Assembly (NCBI RefSeq): GCF_003967175.1
Contig: NZ_AP018553.1
Span: 1,302,001-1,366,000 of the forward strand
Source of the DNA: Sulfodiicoccus acidiphilus
GTDB taxonomy: Archaea; Thermoproteota; Thermoprotei_A; Sulfolobales; Sulfolobaceae
Direction: 5' to 3'
DNA length: 64,000 nucleotides
Numbering within the stretch: the stretch's first letter is position 1; every line of letters begins with the position of its first letter. Below the pieces are notes generated by a model that did no database searches, had not been told where the DNA came from, and saw only the letters and a program-made list of their open reading frames with translations. The position numbers were made by a program, and so were the translations under genes. This document shows, piece by piece, positions 11,813 to 17,446 of this stretch.

Positions 11813-13297
11813 GTGAGAGTGCTGCTGGTCACGGGGAAGTTGGCTGAACGGGCCGTCAGGGAGGCCGCCTCTAGAGTTAGGGGTGCGGAGGTTGAGGTCA
11901 AGGTTCTAGACTACCCCGTGGCCGCTCTGATGACGGCCAAGTACGTCGCCGAGAAGTTGAAGGGGGTTGACGGCAATTTCGACTACATAGTTGTCCCAGG
12001 CCTGGTCTTCGGTGATGTTTCCGTAGTCGAGAGAAGCACCGGAGTGAGGACGGTTAAGGGGAGCCAGGATGCCTACGACATCCCTGTTGTCATCGAGGCG
12101 CTCAAGAGGGGGTTACCCCTATCTTCTCTGGAGCCCGCTGACGCGGTGATAGCTAGGATAAGACTTTCCGATCTGAGGAAGGAAATAGCAGAGATGGAGA
12201 ATAGTGCGGAATACGCCTTCGAACAGGATGGACTGAAGATCCCAATCTCTCCCCCACCTTTCAGGATATTCTTGGAGCTCGACGTAAAGTGGGACGAAGA
12301 GAGAGTGAAGAGGGAAGCCCTTAGGGTGAGGGACTACGTTGACGTCGTTGTAGTGGGTACTCCCGCTGGTAGCGACGATCCAGACTCTTTATCCCGGAAG
12401 GTGAAGACGCTTGTAGACCTAGGGTTCAGAGTAGGAGTGGACTCTGCTTCTCCGAACGAGCTGAAGGCCGGTGTGAGGGCGGGGGCCGGTTTCGTTTTCA
12501 ACCTTAACGAGACCAATTTGGACCTACTAGAGGAGGCAAAGGACGCGACGTTCATAGTGGCTCCAACGTATCCAGAGGAAAGGGCGAAGAGGTGTCTCTC
12601 CATTTTCAGGGATGCTCAGAGGAGGGGTTACAGGAAGTTGATCTTGGATCCAGTGCTTTCTCCACCGGTCTTAGGAACTTTCCAGTCGCTCACAGAGTAC
12701 GCTCAGGTTAGAAAGGAGCTCCCAAACGTCCCTACACTGATGGGAGTACTTAACGTCACAGAGTTGATCGACGCTGATAGCCACGGAGTCAACGCCTTGA
12801 TGGCTACCTTGGCCCAGGAGTTGGGAGTGGGAAACCTACTCACCATGGATAAGGGGAGAACTAGGTGGTCGGCGTGGGAACTCAGGACCGCAACATCGAT
12901 GGTGTCTTTAGCTCACGTCAGGAGGAAACCACCTAAGGACATCGGAGTAGACCTATTGATACTAAAGGACAGGGAAAGGGAGGATCGCGAGTTCCTCCAT
13001 GCCGACCAGGTGATCGAGGTGAGCGAGATAGAACCTAAGATGGATCGAGGATTCGTGAGGATAGGATTAGAGGACGATAAGTTGGCTTTGGTATTTAATG
13101 ATGGAAATCATAGAAGGAAAGTGAAGTTGATGAGCGAGAACGCACTATCTCTAGGAAGGGCCCTAGTGAGGAGTGTGTCAATGGATCCAGAACACGCACT
13201 ATACGTAGGTTACGAGCTCGCTAAGGCGGAAATGGCGTTACAGCTGGGGAAGAGGTACGCACAGGACTCGCCCCTTTTCAGAGTGAGGATGAAATGA
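11813..13297 (+). CDS. Dihydropteroate-synthase-related protein
   Basis: This roughly 494-residue protein matches the archaeal DHPS-related family: an N-terminal domain of about 170 residues, then a TIM-barrel pterin-binding domain. In the barrel I see FNLNETN near 235, YRKLILDPVLSPP near 300 and TLMGVLNVTELIDADSHG near 335, the last being a DHPS-like strand. It is a candidate for joining a pterin to an arylamine in the modified-folate (sulfopterin or methanopterin-like) pathway of Sulfolobales. I chose the GTG at 11813, where the conserved protein begins (RVLLVTGKLAERAV); an ATG at 11741 adds 24 poorly conserved residues. Confidence 0.85.
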   Translation: MRVLLVTGKLAERAVREAASRVRGAEVEVKVLDYPVAALMTAKYVAEKLKGVDGNFDYIVVPGLVFGDVSVVERSTGVRTVKGSQDAYDIPVVIEALKRGLPLSSLEPADAVIARIRLSDLRKEIAEMENSAEYAFEQDGLKIPISPPPFRIFLELDVKWDEERVKREALRVRDYVDVVVVGTPAGSDDPDSLSRKVKTLVDLGFRVGVDSASPNELKAGVRAGAGFVFNLNETNLDLLEEAKDATFIVAPTYPEERAKRCLSIFRDAQRRGYRKLILDPVLSPPVLGTFQSLTEYAQVRKELPNVPTLMGVLNVTELIDADSHGVNALMATLAQELGVGNLLTMDKGRTRWSAWELRTATSMVSLAHVRRKPPKDIGVDLLILKDREREDREFLHADQVIEVSEIEPKMDRGFVRIGLEDDKLALVFNDGNHRRKVKLMSENALSLGRALVRSVSMDPEHALYVGYELAKAEMALQLGKRYAQDSPLFRVRMK

Positions 13298-13749
13298 TAA
13301 GGGTGGCCCTGCCCGAGATCTGGGAGGTCAACGTCGACAGGAGGAGATGGTTGGCTGTGGCCGTCTGTACGCATCTAGTGACACCGGATGCAGAGGGGGA
13401 GTTGGGGGAAATGGCGAGGTACTTAGTAGGGACCTTCTCCCTGGGTACAGCAGTGGAGAGGTTCAGGTTGGGGTACCCTGCGATCTTCGGGGGAGTCTTC
13501 GTCATGAGCGGAAGGTCACCTGTGAGGAGATTCGAGTTCAGGGGATACGTCAAGAGGGTCCCCCTCGCATGTCCCACTGAGTTAAACTCCCTAAAGGACC
13601 TAGACGGTGCTGTGATAGGGGGAGAGAGAGGGGCGCTGACGTTTTCCTCAGTTAGAAAGGACGGTTATGTCCCCGTTGATAATGTGGGCCTGCGGTTCAT
13701 CACGGATACTCCACCGTCACGTACTGTTCCTTTCCCTCGTATATCCTGA
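13294..13749 (+). CDS. Conserved-looking hypothetical protein of the pterin cluster
   Basis: This 151-residue protein has no family I recognise. It is soluble and mixed alpha/beta, with a basic middle. Its ATG overlaps the stop of the DHPS-related gene (ATGA), so it is translated with it and probably serves the same pathway. Its last 50 bases overlap the 3' end of the PTPS-like gene on the other strand. The C-terminal dozen residues look non-conserved, so a missed base near the end is possible. Confidence 0.7.
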
Positions 13750-14116
13750 CTCTAACTGACTTTGGAGAGCCCAGTTTACTGTGTAGCTCTCTCGCCAATT
13801 CTGCCGCTATGAACTCGGCAGTTGGGAAGGGCGCATCGATCACCTTGATCTCTACCCTGAACGGGCCGCGTAGCTCCAGCTTCTCCACGTCCCTCGCTGG
13901 CACGATGAGCTTGTGGTCCCACTCCCTCAGGGTCTCCGTGAGTACCCTCCTCACCTCCTCGAAGTTGACCACGAACCCCGTGGACTCCTCAACTTCCCCC
14001 TCAACTTCGACGTTCACTTGGTAAGTGTGGCCGTGTATTTGGGAGTCGGCTGGAGAGGAGAGTGTGTAGTGGGCAGAATCTAGTGTGAACCCCTCAACTC
14101 CCACTCTGAACTTCAA
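13700..14116 (-). CDS. 6-pyruvoyltetrahydropterin synthase/QueD-like protein
   Basis: This 138-residue protein has the T-fold of PTPS/QueD. Zinc ligands are visible as DSAHYTL near residue 14 and HGHTYQV near 29; REWDHKLI near 66 and [11 protein letters not shown] near 97 are further hallmarks. The Cys that normally lies just before HGH is absent (the residues are DSQIHGH), so it is not a standard PTPS or QueD. PTPS-III-type enzymes with altered active sites make 6-hydroxymethyldihydropterin, which fits the MptE gene nearby. The start overlaps the end of the upstream gene. Confidence 0.87.
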
Positions 14117-14600
14117 CCAAGATCCTCCTCAGGTTCTTGTCTACATGTTCCCACAGTGCCTCCGTTAGATACCTGATCTCGTCGCAGGTCAACTTAATGT
14201 CCTGGTCCCTCTTCATCGACTCTAACACCTTCAGGGCCCTCATAAGCTTCTGGAACTCGCCCCTCACAACCGTCCTACCTTGAAATGTGAGGTCCTCACC
14301 TAGAACGAAGTCCCCACCAACCTCCAGTATCTGATATAGGGCAAACGTCGCTTGACTAGCGTCAGCCTCGAACTCGTTCAACCTAGTGATCACTTCCCTA
14401 GTTAGGGTAGAGACGTAGTCCCTTACGAGGTCGACGAGACTGTCTACCACTTCCATCCCCATTCTGAACTTGGGATTCGCCAATAGTTCTCTGAACTTCG
14501 AGTTGGTGAGGCAAGAGGTGTCACAGGGAACGGGAACCATAAGTGGCTCTATTACCATGGACGGCCTCTCCCTCATGAACTCCTCCTCGAGGGAAGCCAT
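14094..14600 (-). CDS. Hypothetical helical protein of the pterin cluster
   Basis: This 168-residue, all-helical soluble protein belongs to no family I recognise. It has two Cys in PCDTSC near residue 27. It is co-transcribed with the PTPS-like gene, which it overlaps by 23 bases. The ATG at 14600 is chosen because a TATA-like TATTATACA lies about 26 bases upstream; an ATG at 14609 is less well placed. A function linked to pterin synthesis is possible from position only. Confidence 0.72.
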
Positions 14601-14604
14601 GGGA

Positions 14605-14631
14605 AACAATATTACGGCCGTGTATAATAGC
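14605..14631. promoter_or_regulatory. Divergent promoter region, helical protein / NTase-like gene
   Basis: Two TATA-like elements lie within 25 bases. AATATTAC near 14608 serves the plus-strand GTG at 14637, and TATTATACA near 14622 on the minus strand serves the ATG at 14600. Both are about 26 bases from their starts, so the two transcription units begin almost face to face and may exclude each other. Confidence 0.6.
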
Positions 14632-14636
14632 TTGCC

Positions 14637-15089
14637 GTGGACGCTCTAACTGGACTTACTCGGATGGCCTTGGAGGGCTTTATGGAGTGGTTCGGTAAAG
14701 ACGTGGTGGGGATCGCGGCCCTGCGCTCCGATAATGAGATGCACGTTCTGATTCTCGTGGACGGCATCCGTGAGATCTCGATCACCGCTAGGACGGAAAT
14801 CTGGAGGAAGTTCTACGAAGCTCTCAGGACATCTCACCTCTTCTCCTCCTACGTCGAGGAGTTCGGGACTGCTCCACGTATAGTTGGGATCTTGCTTTCC
14901 CCAGAGGAAGTGGACTACCACATCCCGTGGGTCGTCCACCTCCTTCTCCAGGGGACAGTCCTCCTGGATCCGAAGGGCATTCTGAAGAAGGCAAGGGAAG
15001 TTCTGAAAGGGGTCAAGACGTTCCAGCATAGAAACGGGGCAGTTGTAGTAATGGGCGATCTCTCCAAGGGGGAGGTGGTTGACCTTTGA
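14637..15089 (+). CDS. Nucleotidyltransferase-like partner of a HEPN protein
   Basis: This 150-residue protein precedes a HEPN gene and overlaps it by four bases, the standard arrangement of MNT/HEPN pairs. The N-terminal 50 residues have the right strand pattern (VVGIAALRSDNEMHVLILV), but the G-S-x-Asp-x-Asp catalytic signature of active nucleotidyltransferases is degraded. The protein may therefore be an inactive or structural MNT relative. Such pairs act as toxin-antitoxin modules or as housekeeping complexes. Here the pair lies inside a pterin gene cluster. The GTG start is 26 bases from a TATA-like element. Confidence 0.65.
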   Translation: MDALTGLTRMALEGFMEWFGKDVVGIAALRSDNEMHVLILVDGIREISITARTEIWRKFYEALRTSHLFSSYVEEFGTAPRIVGILLSPEEVDYHIPWVVHLLLQGTVLLDPKGILKKAREVLKGVKTFQHRNGAVVVMGDLSKGEVVDL

Positions 15090-15499
15090 ACAACAGCGCT
15101 CTAGCCTCGGAATACATGCTCCGTGCCTCGAGAAGTCTAAAGGAGGCGAGACAGAGTCACGAGGAAGGAGACCTAGTAGGGGCCGTGGTCAGTGCTGGAG
15201 AGGCTGTGGATTACGCTGCTAGGGTGGTTCTGGCACTCTATGGGATCGTTCCACTCTGTCTTGGAGCATCCTTCGTTTTGGAGTACCTGATTTCCAAGGG
15301 GAAAGCCACCGAGATCGTCAAGCTGGTAGGGGAAATGGAGGAGATCGCGTTGAAGGGGTTACTGGCCGAGAAGCTCGACGAATCGTCCCTCAAGTCCCCC
15401 TCAGTCGTGGTAAGAGAGGTCGAGGTGAAGGCCACAATTGAGAGGGCCTCAAGGGTGATAGAGGCAGTGGAGGGGATTTTCGACGACTTTCACGATTGA
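15086..15499 (+). CDS. HEPN-domain protein
   Basis: This 137-residue four-helix protein of the HEPN type carries the typical core ASEYMLRASRSLKEARQ and AVVSAGEAVDYAARVV. I see no R-x4-6-H motif, so ribonuclease activity is doubtful. The TTG start overlaps the stop of the nucleotidyltransferase-like gene (TTGA), which indicates coupled translation and a likely complex. The following small gene starts two bases after its stop. Confidence 0.78.
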   Translation: MNNSALASEYMLRASRSLKEARQSHEEGDLVGAVVSAGEAVDYAARVVLALYGIVPLCLGASFVLEYLISKGKATEIVKLVGEMEEIALKGLLAEKLDESSLKSPSVVVREVEVKATIERASRVIEAVEGIFDDFHD

Positions 15500-15500
15500 C

Positions 15501-15689
15501 TTGGATTCCCATCAGTGTGGCACCGATCCTTGGGAAGCGCTTGGCCACTTGAGGGGGGAAGAAGTGTTGTTCAAGGTGAGTGCTAGCAATCCGCTTCTTC
15601 CAGAGCTCACTCGGGAACTCGAGATCGTGAAGGTTGAGGGTGGTGTACTTTTATTGAAGTTCAGAGATGGATCTCCTTCTACTCTCTAG
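15501..15689 (+). CDS. Small hypothetical protein
   Basis: This 62-residue protein is squeezed between the HEPN and MptE genes, starting at a TTG and overlapping the GTG of mptE by one base (TAGTG). It has a beta-rich C-terminal half (LEIVKVEGGVLLLKFRDG) and no family I recognise. Its tight packing supports it being real and co-translated. Confidence 0.6.
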   Translation: MDSHQCGTDPWEALGHLRGEEVLFKVSASNPLLPELTRELEIVKVEGGVLLLKFRDGSPSTL

Positions 15690-16306
15690 TGAGGTCAATG
15701 ATGGGTTACACCGAGTTGGCCGACTACTCTTCGGCTTCGCTCCTAAATTCCATGCTCCACGACGATCTTTCTGAAGACCTGGTGGACATGCTCAAGGGAA
15801 GGACAGTGGCCGTTGTAGGTGCTGGCCCTTCTCTGACTTCCGTGTCCCACTTCAGCGAAGAAAGGGTGATCGCAGCCGACGGTGCCTCAAGGTATCTAAT
15901 GGAGAAGGGCATAACTCCTGACGTAGTGGTGACGGACTTAGACGGCATTTCAGAAGTATTTCCCACGTTCTACGTAGTCCACGCTCACGGCGACAACTTC
16001 CATTTGTTGTGGAGAGTCGGGCTGATGAAGAAGGTTGTGGGGACGTGTCAAGTGGCGCCGTTCGGCAGGCTCAAGGTCTTCGGCGGCTTCACAGACGGAG
16101 ACAGAGCTGTGGCGCTGGCGCTTGCTGCGGGAGCGATGAAAGTGAGGCTTTACGGTATGGACTTCGACTCTGAGCTCACGGGGAAGTACTCTAAGCCAAC
16201 TCTCCAGGACGATATCCCTTCCTCCCCTACAAAGAGGGCTAAACTCAAGATAGCCAAGTGGGTAGTGGAGGAATTAATGCAGGACGGACTCAGGCACAAA
16301 GTCTGA
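15689..16306 (+). CDS. mptE: 6-hydroxymethyl-7,8-dihydropterin pyrophosphokinase, MptE type
   Basis: This 205-residue protein matches the archaeal DUF115/MptE family, which transfers pyrophosphate from ATP to 6-hydroxymethyl-7,8-dihydropterin and is unrelated in fold to bacterial FolK. Diagnostic segments are AVVGAGPSL near 43, AADGA near 67, VVTDLDG near 83, HAHGDN near 97, and FGGFTDGDRA near 126. With the PTPS-like and DHPS-related genes it completes a pterin branch leading to the modified folate of Sulfolobales. The start may be the GTG at 15689 or an ATG three to four codons later. Confidence 0.92.
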   Translation: MRSMMGYTELADYSSASLLNSMLHDDLSEDLVDMLKGRTVAVVGAGPSLTSVSHFSEERVIAADGASRYLMEKGITPDVVVTDLDGISEVFPTFYVVHAHGDNFHLLWRVGLMKKVVGTCQVAPFGRLKVFGGFTDGDRAVALALAAGAMKVRLYGMDFDSELTGKYSKPTLQDDIPSSPTKRAKLKIAKWVVEELMQDGLRHKV

Positions 16307-16466: not shown

Positions 16467-17446
16467 ATGAGTCTGATCCCGAGAGCGCCTAACGTTAAAC
16501 CTGGAGAGAAGTTCGATGTCATAGTTGTGGGTCTAGGTCCAGCAGCCTATGGGGCGGCTCTCTATAGTGCTAGATATATGTTGAAGACGCTCGTAATTGG
16601 AGAGACGCCTGGTGGTCAGTTGACGGAGGCCGGCGAGGTCGACGACTATCTCGGACTTGCTGGAATTAACGCTGGAGACATGATAAAGACCTTCTCTGCA
16701 CACGTCGCCAAGTACAACGTCCCAATACTAATGGACAGGGTGGAGTCGTTATCTAAGAGCGGGGAGGAGTTCGTGGTTAGAACGAAAAGGAGGGGCGATT
16801 ACAGCGCAAAGGCTGTAGTATTGGCTATAGGAGTGAAGAGGAGGAAGCTCGGTGTACCTGGCGAGGATCAATTCGCCGGGAGGGGAGTATCTTATTGTTC
16901 CGTCTGCGATGCCCCTCTGTTCAAGGGGAAGAGAGTTGTTGTAGTGGGGGAGGTAATTCAGCGCTAGAGGGGGCAGAGCTACTCACCCGTTACGCAACTA
17001 AGGTGTACTTGGTTCACAGGAGAGATGAGTTCAGAGCGCAACCGATATACGTCAAACTGGTCAAAGAGAAGCCCAACGTGGAGTTCCTCCTGAACTCGAG
17101 GGTGACCAAGATCGAGGGGGAAAAGTTGGTGAGGAGAGTTACAGTGGAGTCTCTCAAGGACGGTAAAACAACGGAACTAGAGGTCGACGGCATTTTCATA
17201 GAGATCGGATTCGACCCAGACGTCGAGTTCGCCAAGAGGAACGGTATCGAGACTGACGAGTTCGGCTACATAAAGGTGGACGAATGGATGAGGACGAACG
17301 TCCCTGGAGTGTTCGCTGCTGGAGACTGCACTCAGATGTGGATAGGTTTTAGACAGGTGGTCACTGCTGCGGCACAGGCAGCTGTAGCTGCACATAGTGC
17401 TTACAATTACATAAACGAACTCAAGGGGAACACTGGTGGAGCTTAG
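16467..17446 (+). CDS. trxB: Thioredoxin reductase-like flavoprotein (one-base shift)
   Basis: Restoring one base gives a 326-residue FAD/NAD(P)H enzyme that reduces thioredoxin or a similar protein. The FAD motif [17 protein letters not shown] lies near 22-38, the redox-active CSVCDAP near 145, and the C-terminal FAD motif VFAAGDCT near 288. The shift is in the G5 run at 16946-16950; one more G turns [10 protein letters not shown] into [17 protein letters not shown], the NAD(P)H-binding glycine motif. A TATA-like TTTTAAC lies about 29 bases upstream. The next gene overlaps its end by 11 bases. Confidence 0.93.

Follow-up and report, generated by a model that had tools for sequence, protein, structure and literature searches.

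What does the stretch at 11813-16306 of this Sulfodiicoccus acidiphilus sequence make, and why should a nucleotidyltransferase/HEPN pair of toxin-antitoxin (TA) type lie among its pterin genes? The window, meaning the whole 64,000 nucleotides analyzed, comes from a genome of 2,353,189 bp on a single contig, in the family Sulfolobaceae, and all eight genes of the stretch are present as open reading frames (ORFs). MptE neighborhoods from 31 Sulfolobaceae genomes (11 genera), searched with iterated profiles, served for comparison. We propose that this is a pterin-making cluster in which three enzymes have dedicated accessory proteins and the nucleotidyltransferase (NT) and HEPN protein form a domesticated pair, a reading to which we give an even chance of being right as a whole. 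The features are as follows.

11813-13297, plus strand: DHPS-like protein of 494 residues, TIGR00284, with DUF6513 and a C-terminal PterinBD-DUF4346
13294-13749, plus strand: U151, confined to Sulfolobaceae; a proposed partner of DHPS, which it adjoins in 31 of 31 genomes
13700-14116, minus strand: PTPS-like protein of 138 residues, motif DSQIHGHTY, without the catalytic Cys
14094-14600, minus strand: U168, confined to Sulfolobaceae and mostly helical; proposed PTPS partner
14601-14636, no strand: putative divergent double promoter between U168 and NT, with two TATA-like boxes
14637-15089, plus strand: NT, a degenerate minimal nucleotidyltransferase (MNT) without GSX10DXD
15086-15499, plus strand: HEPN protein (PF05168); lacks RX4HXY and the RGPxxYG segment that its intact relatives have
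15501-15689 from TTG, plus strand: U62, confined to Sulfolobaceae, with one invariant Cys and one invariant Gly; proposed MptE partner
15689-16306, plus strand: predicted MptE-like 6-hydroxymethyldihydropterin diphosphokinase of 205 residues (PF01973)

The eight genes keep the same order and orientation in 27 of the 31 genomes, and dN/dS between close pairs is far below 1 for every cluster gene (about 0.01-0.26). Conservation of the cluster is therefore far beyond chance. A preliminary description, made from the letters alone, had recognized the eight-gene cluster and proposed comparing its order across Sulfolobales; run on the 31 Sulfolobaceae, that comparison bears the cluster out, and the genes of unknown function, far from being missing in most relatives, stand in the 27 intact clusters. 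The same description saw these genes as locked in by overlaps, which holds in part. Overlaps there are: 4 bp for DHPS/U151 and for NT/HEPN, 1 bp for U62/MptE and about 23 bp for PTPS/U168, while U151 and PTPS meet tail to tail with an overlap of 50 bp. A single locked operon does not result, however, as gene direction defines three transcription units, DHPS-U151 (plus), U168-PTPS (minus) and NT-HEPN-U62-MptE (plus), with U168 and NT diverging across a gap of 36 bp. U168 has 168 residues from its ATG; a TTG at 14609 would give 171. Searches of the cluster found no RNA element and no tRNA.

That the cluster supplies the pterin route of a methanopterin-like folate is well supported. The DHPS-like protein matches TIGR00284 over residues 1-488 at 468.9 bits (cut-off 256.65) and MptE matches PF01973 at 78.2 bits (cut-off 34.6). 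MptD (PF04038) was detectable in 0/31 Sulfolobaceae genomes, and a control search found it in three other archaea. These results uphold the suggestion of the preliminary description that a DHPS-related protein, a Cys-less PTPS and MptE form a pterin route. Phylum-wide, the DHPS-like protein occurs in 57/200 Thermoproteota genomes, and several other Thermoproteota carry its gene near MptE and have none of the five small proteins there. A locus from another family of the same order (L223, 1860-8609) combines MptE, a dihydromethanopterin-reductase-like flavoprotein, DUF1464, MptA, a PTPS with CxxxHGH, RFAP synthase and a DHPS-like protein, a gene set that ties TIGR00284 to a methanopterin-type route with an RFAP-derived arylamine. 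DUF1464 in that locus is a further candidate for the methanopterin-type pathway. RFAP synthases have been reported from Sulfolobus (SSO0370 and ST1329; PMC6787355), and the modified folate of S. solfataricus contains 5-(p-aminophenyl)-1,2,3,4-tetrahydroxypentane, according to the title of Zhou and White 1992 (PMID 1320614, cited in PMC3261824). The DHPS-like protein probably joins 6-hydroxymethyldihydropterin diphosphate to an arylamine.

The PTPS-like protein has the PTPS fold: it matches PF01242 at 81.9 bits (cut-off 22.4) and carries HGH and the other invariant residues of the family. Exactly one PTPS is encoded per genome in 30 of the 31 Sulfolobaceae. None of 28 aligned relatives contains a Cys, the family motif being [DN]xQ[IL]HGHTY. 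The CxxxHGH motif of PTPS-I (QueD) occurs in 0/29, with D or N at position -4, and the Glu of the PTPS-III motif ExxHGH in 3/29, its position being taken by S, D, Q, N, E or A (S in the window). Judged by the published motifs (PMC5041015), the cluster PTPS is neither PTPS-I nor PTPS-III; that paper also names PTPS-VI as a validated folate enzyme. Identity with QueD was rejected on the motif count and on distribution, since stand-alone QueC is found in only some Sulfolobaceae and PTPS does not track it. A Plasmodium PTPS in which Glu replaces the Cys forms 6-hydroxymethyldihydropterin from the triphosphate (PMC2229834). Because MptD, the usual archaeal aldolase, is missing, the PTPS-like protein is the probable 6-hydroxymethyldihydropterin-forming step.

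The NT/HEPN pair has a different origin. NT alone has no Pfam match, but its profile finds proteins of other Thermoproteota that are ordinary MNTs (PF01909), with a HEPN gene (PF05168) directly behind in nearly all cases. In hhalign comparisons with these intact outside pairs, NT scores 98.6% and HEPN 97.7%, against 0.5% and 0.1% for unrelated controls. By profile homology, then, the ancestor of NT and HEPN was an MNT-HEPN pair of Class II. The Gly, Ser, Asp and Asp of the GSX10DXD active site are kept in 16/16 outside MNTs of the joint alignment, whereas the cluster NTs have the second Asp in 0/28 and the first in 1/28, and so lack the MntA-type motif. RX4HXY, the HepT-type motif, occurs in 0/28 cluster HEPNs, which have also lost the HDV and RGPxxYG segments seen in the outside HEPNs. 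Loss of the catalytic motifs is thus strongly supported in the alignments. The two genes are nonetheless adjacent in all 28 genomes that carry them, and close-pair dN/dS (0.06-0.14 for NT and 0.02-0.26 for HEPN) falls in the range of the cluster enzymes, a sign of purifying selection. Because the motifs are lost and yet selection acts, this is probably a domesticated, non-catalytic pair. The cluster NTs form one clade (support 1.0, midpoint-rooted tree), and the cluster HEPNs likewise fall into one group, though with no support value; we read this as one capture and domestication. The preliminary description had allowed that the pair and the unknown genes catalyze missing steps or regulate the pathway; for NT and HEPN, catalysis is now unlikely, the motifs being absent in 28/28.

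U151 and U168 occur in 15/15 sampled Sulfolobaceae and 0/285 other Thermoproteota, and U62 in 10/10 and 0/190, respectively. AlphaFold gives confident models for U151 and U168 (pLDDT 91.5 and 93.7), with which Foldseek found no solved structure at E < 0.001; profile searches of PDB sequences with U62, HEPN, NT, U151 and U168 returned nothing credible. U168 has eight invariant residues (C29, C33, C142, E53, E150, W153, H155 and N159 in the 171-residue numbering). U151 has only six, its Cys being mostly lost in the window's genus, and U62 has two, the Cys and Gly listed above. Three proposed identities were tried and rejected: U62 as a TusA/SirA sulfur carrier, plausible by eye (hhalign probability 0.9%, no Pfam match); U151 as DUF7665 (E 0.025 in one member only, unsupported by the family); and U168 as a HEPN relative (0.1% as the hhalign control). 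The start of U62 is uncertain here. In most relatives a conserved ATG lies within the codons for the FDEFH end of HEPN, and the homologous codon is ACG in both genomes of the genus (15483 in the window). No ATG, GTG or TTG stands at the homologous start in 15462-15501, where the U62 reading frame continues open across the end of HEPN; the first canonical start is the TTG at 15501. Translation may begin at ACG, ATT, TTG or another codon, and the length of 62 is uncertain accordingly.

The gap between U168 and NT is held almost constant. Of the 27 genomes compared, 25 have 30-33 bp from start to start, and the two from the window's genus have 36 bp. AT content peaks at -26 from NT and -27 from U168, although the -27 peak is slightly outscored by an AT-rich stretch at -7 from U168 that coincides with the other box's start region. 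In the window, the TATA-like AATATTA (14608-14614) serves NT in this reading and TATAATA (14623-14629), read on the minus strand, serves U168, each centered at -26. If both messages are leaderless, the -26/-27 peaks would be at the archaeal TATA position. The two operons may be coupled, or may compete for initiation, given how close together the face-to-face boxes are.

In our proposal, the cluster enzymes produce the activated pterin for the methanopterin-like folate of Sulfolobaceae and then couple it to an arylamine. The PTPS-like protein would take the place of MptD, cleaving the dihydroneopterin (tri)phosphate side chain to give 6-hydroxymethyldihydropterin; MptE would convert this to the diphosphate; and the DHPS-like protein would couple the pterin diphosphate with what may be an RFAP-derived arylamine. 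U151, U168 and U62 would be dedicated accessory proteins, and presumably physical partners, of DHPS, PTPS and MptE, respectively. NT and HEPN would most likely form a complex without catalytic activity, with a role in regulating or assembling either MptE or the full set of proteins, and the shared divergent promoter may couple expression of PTPS-U168 with that of NT-HEPN-U62-MptE.

Broken and partial clusters provide more independent evidence for this proposal than intact synteny does. U151 stays with DHPS in 31/31 genomes, U168 with PTPS in 30/30, and U62 with MptE except in one genome (G002). In another (G007) the cluster lies in three pieces, DHPS-U151, PTPS-U168 and NT-HEPN-U62-MptE; these breaks fall between operons, so the linkage they show is at operon level. 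That it broke only into these pieces supports the partner model, as does G002, the only genome without a detectable PTPS, which also lacks U168 in its cluster. There DHPS, U151 and MptE follow one another directly, and the locus has lost PTPS, U168, NT, HEPN and U62. PTPS was found nowhere in this assembly, which is 79% complete; either its lineage forms 6-hydroxymethyldihydropterin otherwise, or the PTPS gene sits in an assembly gap. Both genomes from the genus of Candidatus Aramenus sulfurataquae (G005 and G014) lack NT and HEPN together and keep the other cluster genes, a joint absence that also favors our proposal. We regard the partner model as plausible. Set beside relatives outside Sulfolobaceae, the cluster DHPS is missing one loop (about nine residues) and the cluster MptE two short loops as well as a stretch at its C terminus; it is possible, going by these alignments, that the small proteins compensate for the missing parts. 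A bolder version, in which a TA-type pair was captured once by the Sulfolobaceae ancestor, lost both activities and is now a structural or regulatory subunit of a pterin-synthesis complex with a lineage-specific partner for each enzyme, we put forward only tentatively, thinking it rather unlikely as a whole. In its most extreme form, the invariant cysteines of U168 would even complete the Cys-free PTPS active site in trans.

Several observations weigh against the proposal. GCYH-IB/MptA (PF02649), looked for as the GTP cyclohydrolase that would open the route, was found in 0/31 Sulfolobaceae genomes. PTPS lacks the Cys of PTPS-I and, in 26/29, the Glu of PTPS-III. U151, U168 and U62 match no known family or fold. 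G002 can do without U62, NT and HEPN, and the Aramenus genomes without NT-HEPN. A thioredoxin reductase gene is often a neighbor too, which makes some of the synteny a matter of general conservation. With GCYH-IB and MptD both absent from all 31 genomes, steps are left unaccounted for, and U151, U168 and/or U62 might be the enzymes for them (GTP ring opening, dihydroneopterin triphosphate dephosphorylation or reduction). The strongly conserved Cys, His and Glu of U168 and the universality of U151 in Sulfolobaceae fit this idea, but the confident U151 and U168 models match no known enzyme fold, U151 and U62 have few invariant residues (with the Cys of U151 mostly lost in the genus), and other Thermoproteota with DHPS and MptE, one of them with MptA and PTPS in the locus as well, do without all three proteins. 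We consider such catalysis doubtful.

It is less probable again that the five small genes serve some other process, such as redox or stress control, and share only promoters with the pterin genes. The general synteny around the locus would be expected under that explanation, and NT-HEPN can indeed be missing while the pterin genes stay; yet the linkage outlives the break-up of the cluster in G007, and U168 has gone from the cluster where PTPS has gone. That NT and HEPN are a working TA or defense module merely inserted here is very improbable. They are adjacent, with the MNT gene upstream as in type VII TA systems, and are homologous to intact pairs, but GSX10DXD and RX4HXY are absent from all 28, PADLOC returns no match for them, and they occupy the same place in 27 intact clusters and in the G007 fragment. 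A separate observation concerns the thioredoxin reductase ORF in the window (16467-17446), which is split where the frame shifts at a run of G near 16948. A congeneric relative (L044) has the gene in one unbroken frame, and the lesion is either a sequencing error or real.

Four known systems resemble parts of the proposed cluster. Class II HEPN/MNT modules (PF05168/PF01909), described beside type VII HepT/MntA, lack RX4H and keep GSX10DXD and an adenylylatable Tyr (PMC7641770). The pair here shares their adjacent genes, MNT-first order, PF05168-type HEPN and clear profile homology. Unlike them, it has lost the MNT motif in every member, along with the RGPxxYG segment of the HEPN and its Tyr, and has become a fixed part of a biosynthetic cluster, where purifying selection acts on it. 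HEPN proteins that were domesticated in inactive form, among them the regulator MtlR, and MNT-HEPN domestication more broadly (PMC3710099), offer the parallel of a non-catalytic toxin-type domain kept in a metabolic operon; here, in contrast, both halves are kept as separate genes, both lack their motifs, and a regulatory role is proposed. Archaeal methanopterin/folate clusters (MptA, MptE, TIGR00284 and RFAP synthase, as in L223) likewise link MptE, DHPS-like and PTPS genes, whereas Sulfolobaceae lack MptA and MptD, have a Cys-free PTPS and add U151, U168, U62, NT and HEPN. With PTPS-III (COG0720; PMC5041015, PMC2229834) the cluster PTPS has in common the fold, the HGH motif, a replaced Cys and probable 6-hydroxymethyldihydropterin formation, but the defining ExxHGH glutamate is present in only 3/29.

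To our knowledge, synthesis of the folate-like cofactor of Sulfolobus has been only partly worked out. The proposed cluster would tie five lineage-specific or repurposed proteins to that pathway, and some members of the family are genetically tractable. The cluster would also provide an unusually clear case of a TA-type pair whose motifs are gone from both halves but which is retained in a vitamin pathway, with intact relatives available for comparison.

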